Assembly: GCA_947501215.1 (NCBI GenBank)
Contig: CANMUS010000002.1
Span: 310,001-374,000 of the forward strand
Reading direction: 5' to 3'
From: an uncultured Erythrobacter sp.
GTDB lineage: Bacteria; Pseudomonadota; Alphaproteobacteria; Sphingomonadales; Sphingomonadaceae
Length of the DNA: 64,000 nucleotides
Part shown: positions 5,248 through 43,889 of the stretch, piece after piece
Numbering within the stretch: position 1 is the stretch's first letter
How the letters are laid out: each line of letters opens with the position of its first letter
The notes under the pieces: model-generated
What the model saw: only the letters and a program-made list of their open reading frames with translations
Databases searched by the model: none
Told to the model about the DNA's origin: nothing
Program-made: the position numbers and the translations under genes

Positions 5248-5938
5248 GGTCGATCGGTTTCCGTGTGCTGCGGTGGACCAGGTGCGTCGCACTCGCCGCG
5301 CCGATAATGGGCGCAAGAAGGTTGATGAAGGGTATCGCCAGCAGCCCGGCGACAACGCCGCCCAAAGCGAAACGGGTCAGGCCGCCGATCGGCTGGACTT
5401 CCACTGCGTCACGCCTGTGCCGTAACCAGACCATGTCCTGCAATTCGCGGCCCAGTAGCAGCGCGTTGACGAACCAGAACACGATCGCAGGGCCGATGGC
5501 GGTGAACAGCAGCGCCACGGCGATGGGCGCCGCAAGCAAGTTGAACAGGATGACCCGGCTTGTGGCGCGCAGGCTGTTCGACAGCTCCTCCCCGAAAGGC
5601 ACCTTGCGCGCCCCGGCGGCGTGGGCGGGATAGTGCTTCGCCTCGACGGCATGAACGACTTCGTCGGCGAAGAACTGCAACACGGCCAGCGCGACAATGC
5701 GGAACAGCAGCCAGGCACCGATAACGAAGATGAGGATCGACAGGACAGCATAGACCTCGCCGCTGAGGTCGATCCAGCGCGACAGAAGCCACGGCAGGGC
5801 CGCATTCAGCGCGAATGCCGCTGCCACGAAGATCGCCAGCGTCACCGCCAGGCTCTTGCCGAGCCCGCGCAGTATGGCCGGATCGCCAAGCTGGCCGAGG
5901 GCGAGTGACAGGGCGCGGGGCAGCGAAACCATTGCCAT
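5237..5938 (-). CDS. EI24/CysZ-like integral membrane protein
   Basis: Encodes 233 residues with about four strongly hydrophobic segments (roughly residues 30-55, 63-92, 130-165 and 190-215), the layout of the EI24 domain family that includes the sulfate permease CysZ. The substrate is unknown, and sulfate transport should not be assumed because no cys genes are nearby, although the neighbouring suf operon does use sulfur. The start could also be the Met two codons later. A lipoprotein gene overlaps its 3' end. Confidence 0.85.
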   Translation of the reverse strand: MAMVSLPRALSLALGQLGDPAILRGLGKSLAVTLAIFVAAAFALNAALPWLLSRWIDLSGEVYAVLSILIFVIGAWLLFRIVALAVLQFFADEVVHAVEAKHYPAHAAGARKVPFGEELSNSLRATSRVILFNLLAAPIAVALLFTAIGPAIVFWFVNALLLGRELQDMVWLRHRRDAVEVQPIGGLTRFALGGVVAGLLAIPFINLLAPIIGAASATHLVHRSTRKPIDHAQ

Positions 5939-6044
5939 GCCGATTGGGCGGCGGCGGGCATCAAGTCAACGCCGCGCTTGGCCTTCCCCCGATGAACCGC
6001 TAACCGCGCCCGACATATCGAAAATCCAGACCACCGGAGTACCC

Positions 6045-7040
6045 ATGACCCAGCCCCGTTACGACGTTATCGCCATCGGCAATGCGATCGTCGACGTGAT
6101 GTCGCCCTGCGAAGACGAACTGATCGAGGACCTCGGCCTCGCCAAGGGCGGGATGACGCTGGTCGATACCGATCGCGCGGAGGAGCTGTATTCGGCCATG
6201 GGTCCGGCCAAGGAGATTTCCGGCGGTTCGGCTGCCAATACGCTCGCCGGGATGAGCGCGCTGGGCGCGCAATGCGCTTTCGTCGGCCAGGTCGCGAAGG
6301 ACCAGCTGGGCGATGTCTTCAGCCACGACATTCGCGCCGTCGGCATCGATTTCGACACGCCCGCCCGCGACGAAGAGCCGCCGACCGCCCGCTGCCTGAT
6401 CTTCGTGACGCCCGATGGCGAGCGGACGATGAATACCTTCCTCGGCGCGAGCCAGTTCCTGCCGCCCAAAGCGCTCGACGACGAGCTGATCGCCAGCGCG
6501 GGGATCCTCTATCTCGAAGGCTACCTCTGGGACCCCGAAGAACCGCGCAGCGCCATGCGCCATGCGATCGACGTTGCACGCAAGGCCGGGCGCAAGGTCG
6601 CCTTCACCGCCAGCGAAAGCTTCGTGATCGACCGCCACGGCGACGATTTCCGCGCGCTGATCGAGGAAGGGCAGATCGACATTCTGTTCGTCAATGAAAA
6701 CGAACTCGCCTCGCTGACCGGCGAGAGCGATTTCGACGCCGGCCTCGCCGCGCTGGAGGGCAAGGTCCCGGTGATCGTCGCCACCCGCAGTGCCAAGGGA
6801 GCCGTAGCCATCGCCGACGGCACCCGCGCCGAAGTGGCCGCCGAGCCTGTCGAGAAGGTGGTCGACACCACCGGCGCAGGCGATCTCTTCGCTGCGGGCT
6901 TCCTCACCGGCCACGCGCGCGGCGATGATCTCGAAACCTGCCTCCGCATGGGCGCAATCTGCGCGGCGGAGATCATCAGCCATTACGGCGCGCGGAGCGA
7001 AGCGGATCTGAAGGCGCTGGTGAGCAAGAAGCTGGGCTAG
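6045..7040 (+). CDS. PfkB-family sugar/adenosine kinase
   Basis: Encodes 331 residues. The N-terminus YDVIAIGNAIVDV and the glycine-rich GGSAANTLAGMSALG are the substrate-side PfkB motif. The C-terminal motif DTTGAGDLFAAGFLTG carries the catalytic Asp and anion hole. Overall it looks most like the adenosine-kinase subgroup, which makes AMP from adenosine and ATP, but ribokinase-like substrates cannot be excluded. The ATG at 6045 follows a CCGGAG ribosome binding site; a longer frame upstream lacks family similarity. A hairpin terminator follows about 110 bases downstream. Confidence 0.92.
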   Translation: MTQPRYDVIAIGNAIVDVMSPCEDELIEDLGLAKGGMTLVDTDRAEELYSAMGPAKEISGGSAANTLAGMSALGAQCAFVGQVAKDQLGDVFSHDIRAVGIDFDTPARDEEPPTARCLIFVTPDGERTMNTFLGASQFLPPKALDDELIASAGILYLEGYLWDPEEPRSAMRHAIDVARKAGRKVAFTASESFVIDRHGDDFRALIEEGQIDILFVNENELASLTGESDFDAGLAALEGKVPVIVATRSAKGAVAIADGTRAEVAAEPVEKVVDTTGAGDLFAAGFLTGHARGDDLETCLRMGAICAAEIISHYGARSEADLKALVSKKLG

Positions 7041-36154: not shown

Positions 36155-37315
36155 TTATAGAGATAACGTGGCTAATGCTACCAAAGCTGCCGCACTTGCA
36201 AGATGTCCGTAATGGCGCTCAATCATCTCGGCGCTCGTGCCGCTTATCTGCGCTATCGTTAGCAAGGGTAGCCCGGACCTGACGAGGTCGGTGATCGTAC
36301 TGTGGCGCAGCGTATAGGCCGTCGCATCCTTCGGCAGGTCGGCAGACCTCACGGCTGCTGCAATCGGCTTTTTCCACGTTTCCTTGTCCCACGCCTTACC
36401 GTTGGGGCGCATGAATAGCGGAGCGGCTGGCAGTTTGTTTTCGGCCTGCTTGGCAAGAAGCTCCGCCGCTTCGGTCGGCAACTGGATACGGCGCGGCTTC
36501 CCGTTCTTGTCCTTCCCGATGGTCAACTCCGATGTGCGCTTGTCGAAGTCGCCAGCTGTAAGCCCTGCCAGAGCTCCTGGCCGCAACGGCAAGAGGCAAA
36601 GAGCACGAACGAAAGGCCTCGCTTCTGAGTCTGTCGCCCCAACCAGCTTCCTGCGCTGCTCTCGATCGAGATAGAGGGTGCGCCGTCCGTTCGCATTGGG
36701 AATGGCCTTCAAGGCCTCTTGCCAAGCCGCCTCGCTATTCGGAGTGCCCGGGGACATCACCTTCGTCAGTGCTGCCCTTACGGACGCCATATCGCGATTG
36801 ATGGTGGAGGGCGCCCGAGGGCGAGTCCGTTTTTCCTTGCCCTTGTTTCTGCTGACCAGCGCGGGCTTGTCCTCCAAACGCTTGCGCCAATCGGCAAGAT
36901 GACGGCGCCGCAGTTTCTCAAGCTTAACCTTGCCGATCGGATCGTCGTAAACATAGCGTTTGAAACGGGACTCGGCTTCTGGGCGGCCTTCAGCGTAGCT
37001 GCGGCAAGCGCCCGCGACCGTTTCCACCTTGGCCCGGATCTCCCCGCCCGCCTCTACCAGCTCCGCCAGCGCCTCCGCCTCCTTCTTTGCCGCAGCAAAA
37101 CGTGCGTTTCCGGGCAACTCGCCAAAGTCGCCTAGAGATTTTGGCCGATAGCTTCGGGTGTCCTCATCATAGATCCGCGCAATCCAAGTTCCCGGCCCGC
37201 CGCGCTTGGAAGGGCGATAACCCAGAAAACAACCGGCCCTGAGGCGCTGCCAATGTGGCTCGCGCCGCACCTTCAGCTTTTCACGCTCTCCAACTTTGCT
37301 GAGATCCAATGCCAC
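36155..37315 (-). CDS. Tyrosine integrase of the tRNA-Arg element
   Basis: Encodes 386 residues: an N-terminal arm-binding region, a SAM-like core-binding domain (about 100-210) and a catalytic domain with Arg in LLPLRPGALAGL, the HxxR box TLRHSTITDL and the nucleophile Tyr in ERHYGHL. All catalytic residues are present, so it should be active. It ends the element on the right, 140 bases from the right-hand att repeat, and reads inward. Confidence 0.95.
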   Translation of the reverse strand: MALDLSKVGEREKLKVRREPHWQRLRAGCFLGYRPSKRGGPGTWIARIYDEDTRSYRPKSLGDFGELPGNARFAAAKKEAEALAELVEAGGEIRAKVETVAGACRSYAEGRPEAESRFKRYVYDDPIGKVKLEKLRRRHLADWRKRLEDKPALVSRNKGKEKRTRPRAPSTINRDMASVRAALTKVMSPGTPNSEAAWQEALKAIPNANGRRTLYLDREQRRKLVGATDSEARPFVRALCLLPLRPGALAGLTAGDFDKRTSELTIGKDKNGKPRRIQLPTEAAELLAKQAENKLPAAPLFMRPNGKAWDKETWKKPIAAAVRSADLPKDATAYTLRHSTITDLVRSGLPLLTIAQISGTSAEMIERHYGHLASAAALVALATLSL

Positions 37316-40169: not shown

Positions 40170-41837
40170 TCAGGAAGGCAGGAGACATCCGTTTTCAAGC
40201 GCGAACCTGCGCGATGCCATTTCTGCCAGCCCTCCACGGTGACCGATGACGAGCACGGTGCATTTGCCTTCGAGCCCCGCTACCGCTTGCGCGATCTTTT
40301 CTTCGCTGGCCGGATCGACTGCGCTGGTCGCCTCGTCGAGGATGAGCAGGTCTGGCTCACGCAGCAGCGCCCGGGCGAGGGCGATCCGCTGGCGTTCCCC
40401 GCCAGAGAGCGCCCGGCCTGCTTCGCCGATCCGGCAATCGAAGCCGCCCGGTAGGTCGAGAACGAAGTCTGCCGATGCGCGGCGTAGGGCTTCGCAAATC
40501 TGGTGCTCGTCCGCCTCCGGCTCGGCCCAGCGCAGATTGTCGCGCACGCTTCCGGAAAACAGCACTGCATCCTGTTGGACATAGGCCACGCGCGATCGCC
40601 AAGCCTGCCGCGCCCCTCGCTCGAGCGGCACGCCATCGATAAGGACCGCTCCCCGGTCGGGGGACACGAGACCTGCGGCCAGATCGGCCACAGTGCTTTT
40701 CCCGGCGCCTGAGGGTCCTGTCAAAGCGGCAATCTGTCCCCGCGGAATATTCAGCGACACATCCATCAGAGCAATCCGGCCATCGGAATGGACGAAACGG
40801 ACGTTCTGCAATTCCACTGAGCGGCGAAGGCGAGGGGTGCCGACCGGCCCTGTCTGCAGGGGTTCGGCGTTTTTCTCCGCTTCTCCGATAAGGGCTAGTG
40901 ATTGCTCCAGCGAAGGTGCGGCATGGTTCCAGCCCTGCGCTGCAGCCTGGATCGATTCGACCAGCGGTATCGCGCGGACGGCAAGAGCGACGAATGCGAG
41001 CAGGATCGCAGACGACGCCGAAAACCCCTCGATGGCGAACCAGACGGCGATGGCCAGAAGTACTGCAGCGCCGATCTGTATAGCACTCCGCGCCGCCATG
41101 GTGGTCAGGATATAGCGCCGCTCGACCTGGCGCATCGCTTCGAATTCAAGCACCGTCCCGTCGACTTCCCGCCGTCCACGCGCGTGCATTTTTGCCAAGC
41201 GAAGCGCGGCAAGCCCCTCTTCCAGCTTCCGGTATATCCCCTCGTATCGCTGGACCAGCGCTTCTCCGATCCGTCGGGCATCGCGCCGTAGCCAGCGCAA
41301 CAAAGCGAGTGCTGCGATGCCCGCCAGCACCATCCCGAGCGAGAACATCGGAGAAAGCGTAAGGCCTGCAATGGCAAGCGCGACGAGTGTTACGCCTGCC
41401 CGAAGGAGGCTGGTGAGGTACTGTACTGCCTCGCCGACCCGGTCGATCGATGTCACGATCATCGCCCTGTTGCGGCTCTGGGCCTGGCCCGAGAGGAAGC
41501 GCCAGTCAGCCCCGAAGAGCGCCGCGAGCGCGCGGCGGCGCAACCCGTCGACGATCGAAACCGTTACGCGCTGGGCTAGCAAGGCGCGGGCGATCTCGGT
41601 GCCGGCCCGCACGGCCACCAGCACCACGTATATCGCCAGTAAAATTGCGAGGGGCACCTGCGTCAGCTCGAAGGGCAGTTGCGTGAAACGTGTTTCGCCG
41701 GACAAAAGGATTAGCAATGGCACCAGCAGGACGACGCCCAAGCCCTCGGTCGCCGCGCCAATGACCGCGAGCGCGCCGAGCACTACCAGGTCCTTGCGTC
41801 CGGCAAGTTCGACCAGCTCTTTCGCTGCCGAACTCAT
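40170..41837 (-). CDS. ABC exporter (fused membrane and ATPase domains) of the RiPP cluster
   Basis: Encodes 555 residues: a six-helix membrane domain (about 15-300) and an ATPase domain with Walker A GPSGAGKS, Q-loop YVQQDAVLF, signature LSGGERQR, Walker B LLILDEATS and H-loop IGHRGG. No N-terminal peptidase C39 domain is present, so it cannot itself remove a leader. It is the D gene in lasso-type clusters, exporting the product. The ATG overlaps the upstream cyclase-like gene by 4 bases. Confidence 0.9.
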   Translation of the reverse strand: MSSAAKELVELAGRKDLVVLGALAVIGAATEGLGVVLLVPLLILLSGETRFTQLPFELTQVPLAILLAIYVVLVAVRAGTEIARALLAQRVTVSIVDGLRRRALAALFGADWRFLSGQAQSRNRAMIVTSIDRVGEAVQYLTSLLRAGVTLVALAIAGLTLSPMFSLGMVLAGIAALALLRWLRRDARRIGEALVQRYEGIYRKLEEGLAALRLAKMHARGRREVDGTVLEFEAMRQVERRYILTTMAARSAIQIGAAVLLAIAVWFAIEGFSASSAILLAFVALAVRAIPLVESIQAAAQGWNHAAPSLEQSLALIGEAEKNAEPLQTGPVGTPRLRRSVELQNVRFVHSDGRIALMDVSLNIPRGQIAALTGPSGAGKSTVADLAAGLVSPDRGAVLIDGVPLERGARQAWRSRVAYVQQDAVLFSGSVRDNLRWAEPEADEHQICEALRRASADFVLDLPGGFDCRIGEAGRALSGGERQRIALARALLREPDLLILDEATSAVDPASEEKIAQAVAGLEGKCTVLVIGHRGGLAEMASRRFALENGCLLPS

Positions 41838-43742: not shown

Positions 43743-43889
43743 TCAGGTTGGAATGCGATTCGCATTGATGCCGTTGACCAGAGTGCCACCCTTGGGTCCT
43801 GCGATTTCGCGGATCGTTCCCAGGCGCACAAGGTCGGGCGCTGCCCATTCGCGCTTGGCTGTCTTGATTGGGGCTTGCCGGTCTGTCAT
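43743..43889 (-). CDS. RiPP precursor peptide, lasso-leader type, 48 residues
   Basis: A 48-codon frame with AGAGGA 6 bases before the ATG, sitting 24 bases after the PqqD-like gene and 25 bases before the cyclase gene. The leader (1-30) contains WAAPDLVRLGTIREIA, which fits the lasso leader pattern Y-x2-P-x-L-x2-LG, with Trp for Tyr. The predicted core begins near G31: GPKGGTLVNGINANRIPT. It contains no Asp or Glu; Asn39 lies at core position 8 or 9, where the ring acceptor normally sits, and the usual Thr at leader position -2 is Ala. The peptide is too short for most gene finders. Confidence 0.75.
   Translation of the reverse strand: MTDRQAPIKTAKREWAAPDLVRLGTIREIAGPKGGTLVNGINANRIPT

Follow-up and report, generated by a model that had tools for sequence, protein, structure and literature searches.

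The window, meaning the whole 64,000-nucleotide stretch of DNA analysed here, contains a compact operon with the gene order B1-A-C-D (Table 1). Its second gene, A, encodes a 48-residue peptide (MTDRQAPIKTAKREWAAPDLVRLGTIREIAGPKGGTLVNGINANRIPT), and an RBS-like AGAGGA is found at 43901-43896, before the ATG. The genes are closely spaced, with 24 nt between B1 and A, 25 nt between A and C (the start codon of C is the mechanical ORF start), and an overlap of 4 nt between C and D. The leader encoded by A has the motif W15-AA-P18-D-L20, which is the aromatic-x2-P-x-L motif of lasso precursors, and adjoins the PqqD gene. A preliminary description of this DNA had taken A for a lasso-type precursor because of its leader, a view borne out by the presence of P18-x-L20-x2-L23-G24 and by the compact operon. 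B1 matches the lasso PqqD models, in all cases under their cut-offs, and the rhodolasso model NF033534 (cut-off 30 bits) matches the precursor below its cut-off, at 16.4 bits and in the leader part only. The window core ends in Thr, where phosphorylated lasso peptides have Ser, a feature that goes with an HprK-like kinase. Core 7-9, the site of the isopeptide acceptor in lasso peptides, contains neither Asp nor Glu; an Asp/Glu acceptor at position 7-9 belongs to the description of these peptides in the accessible part of PMC10368454. A tyrosine recombinase gene lies at 36155-37315 (-), about 3 kb from the operon, and the two tRNA genes of the window are at 28 and 61 kb.

Table 1. Predicted features of the operon, with positions in the window.
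Feature	Position	Strand	Evidence
Precursor peptide gene A, 48 aa	43743..43889	-	ORF, RBS-like AGAGGA, nine same-length homologues
Predicted core GPKGGTLVNGINANRIPT, residues 31-48	43746..43799	-	Probable register, from Ile/Val(-2) (PMC10368454, accessible part) and Thr in L095/L104
Asn39 codon AAC, core residue 9, predicted ring acceptor	43773..43775	-	Invariant in 10/10 close variants
B1, PqqD-like leader-binding protein (RRE), 96 aa	43914..44204	-	PF05402, E 2.6e-19
C, lasso-type cyclase, asparagine-synthetase family, 627 aa	41834..43717	-	PF00733, E 5.6e-19
D, ABC exporter, 555 aa, start overlaps C end	40170..41837	-	PF00005, E 1e-32

Close homologues and register of the core

A search of 5.8 billion sequences identified nine database homologues of the precursor, each exactly 48 residues long and 79-96% identical to it. 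When these are aligned with the window sequence, residues 24-35 (GTIREIAGPKGG) and Asn39 are invariant, and none of the ten cores contains an acidic residue. The preliminary description had placed Asn at the acceptor position and had remarked on the absence of any acid from the core; both points hold for the window and extend to all nine homologues, Asn39 being the predicted core residue 9. It had also allowed that homologues might carry Asp or Glu at this site, which would make the window gene a mutant outlier, or that another reading frame might be the precursor. Neither is the case: Asn39 and an acid-free core are found in nine out of nine homologues, so the window gene is no outlier, and the homologues preserve the annotated frame. 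Sequence comparison thus confirms that the window ORF is a real precursor gene and not a chance one.

In lasso precursors, the residue at position -2 is usually Thr. Three relatives contain a Thr (two at L095, one at L104), in each case 14 residues after the conserved Trp. The window has Ile29 there, and of the 46 precursors in the wider family described below, 33 show Val and 13 Ile at this point. In the accessible text of PMC10368454, Ile/Val at -2 has been described in Sphingomonadales, and an Ile(-2) has been proven in BsfA. The -2 residue of the window precursor is therefore probably Ile29 and not Ala, as had been proposed. This register places Gly at position 1 in most precursors and every acceptor at core 8 or 9. 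In a control from Priestia (Bacillota, L109), Thr lies 13 residues after Trp. The register with that spacing, which would begin at Ala1 and put Gln at 9 and Asn at 10, is less likely: the window group would then require a ring of ten residues, and the Thr of L095 and L104 would be out of place. Neither spacing fits cleanly in the outgroup candidates L091 and L098.

A wider family of amide-type precursors

Of 397 genomes sampled from the window's bacterial family, 67 contain homologues of C (E <= 1e-20), at 71 loci, all of which (the window and 70 others) were analysed. Precursors were recognized by a W-x2-P leader motif and a position upstream of a related cyclase, the core being ignored. This rule yielded 46 precursors at 45 loci. 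The 26 loci without one are 16 distant outgroup loci, two loci at contig ends (L066 and L084), and eight sister loci; under a looser rule, acid-bearing candidates were found at four of the latter (L052, L069, L074 and L086) and none at the other four.

With positions numbered from the residue after Ile/Val-Ala, 40 of the 46 precursors have Gln or Asn as the presumed acceptor at core 8 or 9, and six have an acid (Gln8 35, Gln9 1, Asn9 3, Asn8 1, Glu8 2, Asp8 1, Asp9 3). In the window group, Asn stands one residue further along than Gln does elsewhere. The question raised earlier, whether the position is always Asn, thus has a divided answer: it is Asn in the nine close homologues, but in the wider family Gln is the usual residue and Asn the minority. 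Twenty-five of the 46 cores lack Asp and Glu altogether, and 27 lack them at core 5-9. An acid at core 5-9 accompanies the amide in 13 of the 40 amide-type precursors, in nine of them as Asp7 before Gln8; L036 and L037 have Asp at core 14. The last core residue is Ser in 44 precursors and Thr in two. A single base separates the Gln codons CAG/CAA and the Asn codons AAC/AAT from codons for acids, and still the amide is retained. W, P and G are invariant in 35 aligned precursors, a set picked by W and P, and NF033534 matches two of these 35 at E <= 0.05.

A profile built from the same number of precursors (35 of the 46) gave 136 matches. The 120 listed, added to the leader-rule set, make 158 distinct precursors, a larger set that is biased because the profile is rich in Gln. 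Among the matches listed, and with that bias, core 8-9 holds an amide in 143 precursors, an acid in 13 and neither in two; 137 precursors have the acceptor at core 8 and 19 have it at core 9, the tail after it runs from 2 to 18 residues, and 115 cores are acid-free versus 33.6 expected at the Asp+Glu rate of the leaders. A class-wide search with the profile matched one of 385 genomes, the window's own, with no more than four further home-family genomes among those listed, and a search of the named genome contigs found no relatives. A profile search at E <= 0.001, which could miss an unlike precursor, found no second precursor of the family in the window's genome. As judged by sequence, the genes and the family-wide conservation of an amide at the predicted acceptor site are solid.

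Some members have additional features. The precursors at L065, L083 and L088 have Gln/Asn-type cores with two cysteines each and may bear disulfides. At L082, two tandem Gln-type precursor genes (5802-5930 and 6005-6133, +) precede a single cyclase.

The cyclase and its phylogeny

C scores 50.8 bits against the lasso cyclase model NF033535, far under the cut-off of 525. Family (PF00733) and fold identify it as an AsnB-like ATP-dependent cyclase, and it retains the PP-loop SGGLDS, in which S246 is conserved in 38 of 39 amide-type cyclases and D250 and S251 in all 39. The predicted structure of C (pLDDT 89.7; the model drew on 21 of 25 homologues) has TsnB9, beta-lactam synthetase and AsnB as its nearest solved folds. 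The N-terminal Cys of AsnB is found in none of the 39 amide-type cyclases at the aligned start; it is absent there from 68 of all 71 cyclases, and the other three (L066, L084 and L096) are cut at contig ends. The mechanical ORF at L076 begins with Met-Cys, 92 residues ahead of the aligned start. The missing Cys rules out an N-terminal glutaminase activity and leaves C without a glutaminase site. An apparent K->R change at R522 was considered as loss of the catalytic Lys and rejected, since the same change is seen in 25 of the 28 cyclases from sister and outgroup loci.

Phylogenetic reconstruction reveals a clade of 43 loci (SH-aLRT 100) that comprises 39 amide loci, three acid loci (L039, L068 and L078) and L066, whose precursor would lie beyond the contig end. 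The three acid loci are on separate branches within the clade and have Glu8 or Asp8 in the place of the amide. All seven sister loci with a precursor, three by the main rule (L043, L056 and L077) and four by the looser one (L052, L069, L074 and L086), have Asp at core 8 or 9. At least four amide/acid changes are needed on the 49 scored loci, most simply read as one switch from acid to amide followed by three returns. The occurrence of Gln, Asn, Glu or Asp at one position, together with the acidic sisters, suggests that core 8/9 is most likely the ring acceptor.

The comparison linked the switch to no residue of the cyclase. A column near residue 424, with His in 29 of 39 amide loci and Gly in eight of ten acid loci, was suggestive but was rejected as the linked residue, as its four independent pairs are too few to reach significance. 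At window residue 546, in a conserved motif, 27 of the 28 cyclases from outgroup and sister loci have Gln, and 32 of 39 amide-type cyclases have His; in this alignment the Gln/His change is a mark of the amide clade.

Unlinked peptidase and kinase genes

The window contains no B2 peptidase gene. One is present in the same genome on contig C1 (L002:8610-9059, +), where it passes the NCBIfam lasso B2 model (63.1 bits, cut-off 33) and has no other lasso gene beside it in the 18 kb analysed. Its family is transglutaminase-like (PF13471). All 67 genomes that have a cyclase homologue also have B2 (E <= 0.001), compared with 120 of the 330 that lack one (Fisher p 6e-26, with kinship ignored and outgroup cyclases included in the 67 genomes). 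In a comparison within the genus, part of a set of 45 chosen genomes, an unlinked B2 is found in eight of eight genomes with C, on another contig or more than 600 kb away in each, and in neither of two without C. Such a split RiPP pathway may be missed by cluster-based tools.

ORFs for HprK-like kinases were found near 40 of the 71 loci searched, often directly before B1. In the window's genome, the HprK-like gene is unlinked (contig C3, L108:5354-6508, -) and scores under the NCBIfam cut-offs. It resembles the ORFs located ahead of B1 in relatives, and its product might phosphorylate the C-terminal Thr/Ser. The link of this kinase to the pathway is weak because the family is widespread irrespective of the cyclase: all but two of 44 genomes scored have it regardless of context or in more than one copy, and genome G374, which lacks the cyclase, also has a second copy.

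Proposed ring closure and alternatives

The genes, the family, the conserved amide at near-fixed spacing and the intact ATP loop can be read directly from the sequences. From them we infer the register, ring closure at the amide, the activation chemistry and threading. The operon would specify a lasso-type RiPP, with B2 and the candidate kinase supplied from elsewhere in the genome, and the acceptor would be a carboxamide, Asn9 in the window and Gln8 in most relatives. B1 would bind the leader, and B2 would cut after Ala30, freeing Gly1. C would activate the side-chain amide with ATP, probably as an adenylated imidate, and attack by the N-terminal amine would then close the ring, either as an isopeptide with loss of ammonia (-17.03 Da) or as a cyclic amidine (-18.01 Da). 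That C closes the ring onto the carboxamide in one of these two ways is a real possibility, if somewhat short of probable. A more specific proposal appears unlikely: that this synthetase clade no longer adenylates an acid and makes a cyclic amidine from the Gln/Asn amide and ATP, giving "macroamidine" lassos in which N replaces the lactam oxygen. An amide-to-AMP-imidate step has been proposed for PesC, an AsnB-like RiPP enzyme, in the accessible text of PMC13060819. For MccJ25, a predicted complex in the part of PMC11420955 consulted puts McjC residue Lys337 at the carboxylate of the acceptor. The acceptor Glu of lariatin cannot be replaced even by Asp, according to the accessible text of PMC4960549; known cyclases are thus strict, which counts against an amide acceptor. 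So do the 13 of 40 amide-type precursors with an acid at core 5-9 that could serve instead, the Asp at core 14 of L036 and L037, the lack of a cyclase residue linked to the amide/acid switch, and the low score of C against the lasso cyclase model.

An ATP site without a glutaminase site implies either direct activation of the amide by C or a substrate that reaches C already deamidated. The latter is the main rival, and we consider it rather improbable: the amide would first be hydrolysed to Glu or Asp, either by a deamidase from beyond the cluster or, at the Asn-Gly of the window peptide, spontaneously, and C would then form an ordinary lactam. The Glu/Asp versions within the amide clade indicate that C can probably use acids, and Asn is followed by Gly, the classical deamidation-prone pair, in 16 of 18 distinct Asn-type precursors among the matches listed, although the window with its nine close variants and L036/L037 make up 12 of these 18, so that few Asn-Gly cases are independent. 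Most members have Gln, however, and Gly comes next in just 45 of 125 among the matches listed; spontaneous deamidation of Gln is far too slow. C has no glutaminase site to carry it out (AsnB Cys 0/39), the window operon has no deamidase-like gene, and the preference for an encoded amide, 40 to 6, is left without explanation. Activation by C of the C-terminal carboxylate, to give a head-to-tail ring, a C-terminal amide or a nitrile with Gln/Asn only structural, would account for the 25 of 46 cores with no other carboxylate and for the Ser/Thr C-terminus in 46 of 46, and there are AsnB-like RiPP enzymes that convert C-termini to amides or nitriles (PMC13060819, accessible text). It is nonetheless quite unlikely: the acid-bearing sister precursors L052, L069, L074 and L086 also end in Ser, a residue that is phosphorylated by a kinase in known relatives (PMC9266682, accessible text), and the distance from amide to N-terminus is constant while core length varies, with Glu/Asp substituting at the same site.

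Transglutaminases act on Gln side chains, and Asn is a poor substrate. The transglutaminase-like family of B2 and its co-occurrence with C would suit a scheme in which acyl transfer by B2 links Gly1 to Gln8/Asn9 and the role of C is confined to folding. We regard this as hardly credible given the conserved ATP loop of C, the presence of Asn at the site in some members, and the presence of the same B2 family in acid-type lasso systems, where it is known only for leader cutting. The position of B2 outside the window and the low score of C (50.8 bits versus 525) could instead point to a degenerate or non-lasso cluster that exports a linear peptide or has been taken over for another function. This too is very unlikely, since the operon ORFs are open, nine homologues share a conserved core, Gln8 persists next to cyclases that are mostly ~30% identical to that of the window, and the unlinked B2 follows C within the genus (8/8 versus 0/2).

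Relationship to known systems

A conserved family lacking the acid acceptor would mean new enzyme chemistry, either amide activation/transamidation by an AsnB-type synthetase or hidden deamidation. Ring chemistry at Gln/Asn, as predicted here from sequence, hints at a way of tying a lasso beyond the known one. It also suggests that search rules demanding Asp/Glu would overlook such peptides. Amidine and lactam differ in mass by 0.98 Da and are separable by high-resolution mass spectrometry. For the predicted window core, the calculated [M+H]+ is 1778.987 if linear, 1761.961 as isopeptide and 1760.977 as amidine or head-to-tail ring; for the Gln8 relative L079 the corresponding values are 1462.813, 1445.786 and 1444.802. 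No lasso peptide with a Gln/Asn acceptor was found in the part consulted of the open-licence PMC literature, nor in that of a 2026 review (PMC13352647); some might stand unremarked in subscription papers or in supplements such as the Sphingomonadales alignment of PMC10368454.

Among the systems nearest to this one, the Priestia aryabhattai cluster (L109), annotated as Paeninodin-type, a kinase-bearing type, has in common the W-x2-P-x-L leader, split B1/B2, C, D and a C-terminal Ser; its precursor combines Thr with an Asp acceptor further on, where the amide family has Ile/Val and Gln/Asn. The precursors of Bradymonadales, Acidobacteriaceae and Sphingomonadales in the accessible text of PMC10368454 have Ile/Val at -2, a kinase and split B genes, and one of the groups named there is the bacterial order to which the window belongs. 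The acceptor of BsfA is Asp8, and that text does not mention Gln/Asn acceptors. The nitrilobacillin enzyme PesC is likewise AsnB-like, with a proposed ATP activation of a carboxylate and then of an amide, but it uses ammonia at the C-terminus of an unrelated peptide and forms no ring (PMC13060819, accessible text). Metanodin, as far as described in the accessible part of PMC12670498, is a lasso with Asn in the ring-forming pair, but there Asn1 is on the amine side and the acceptor is a normal Asp.
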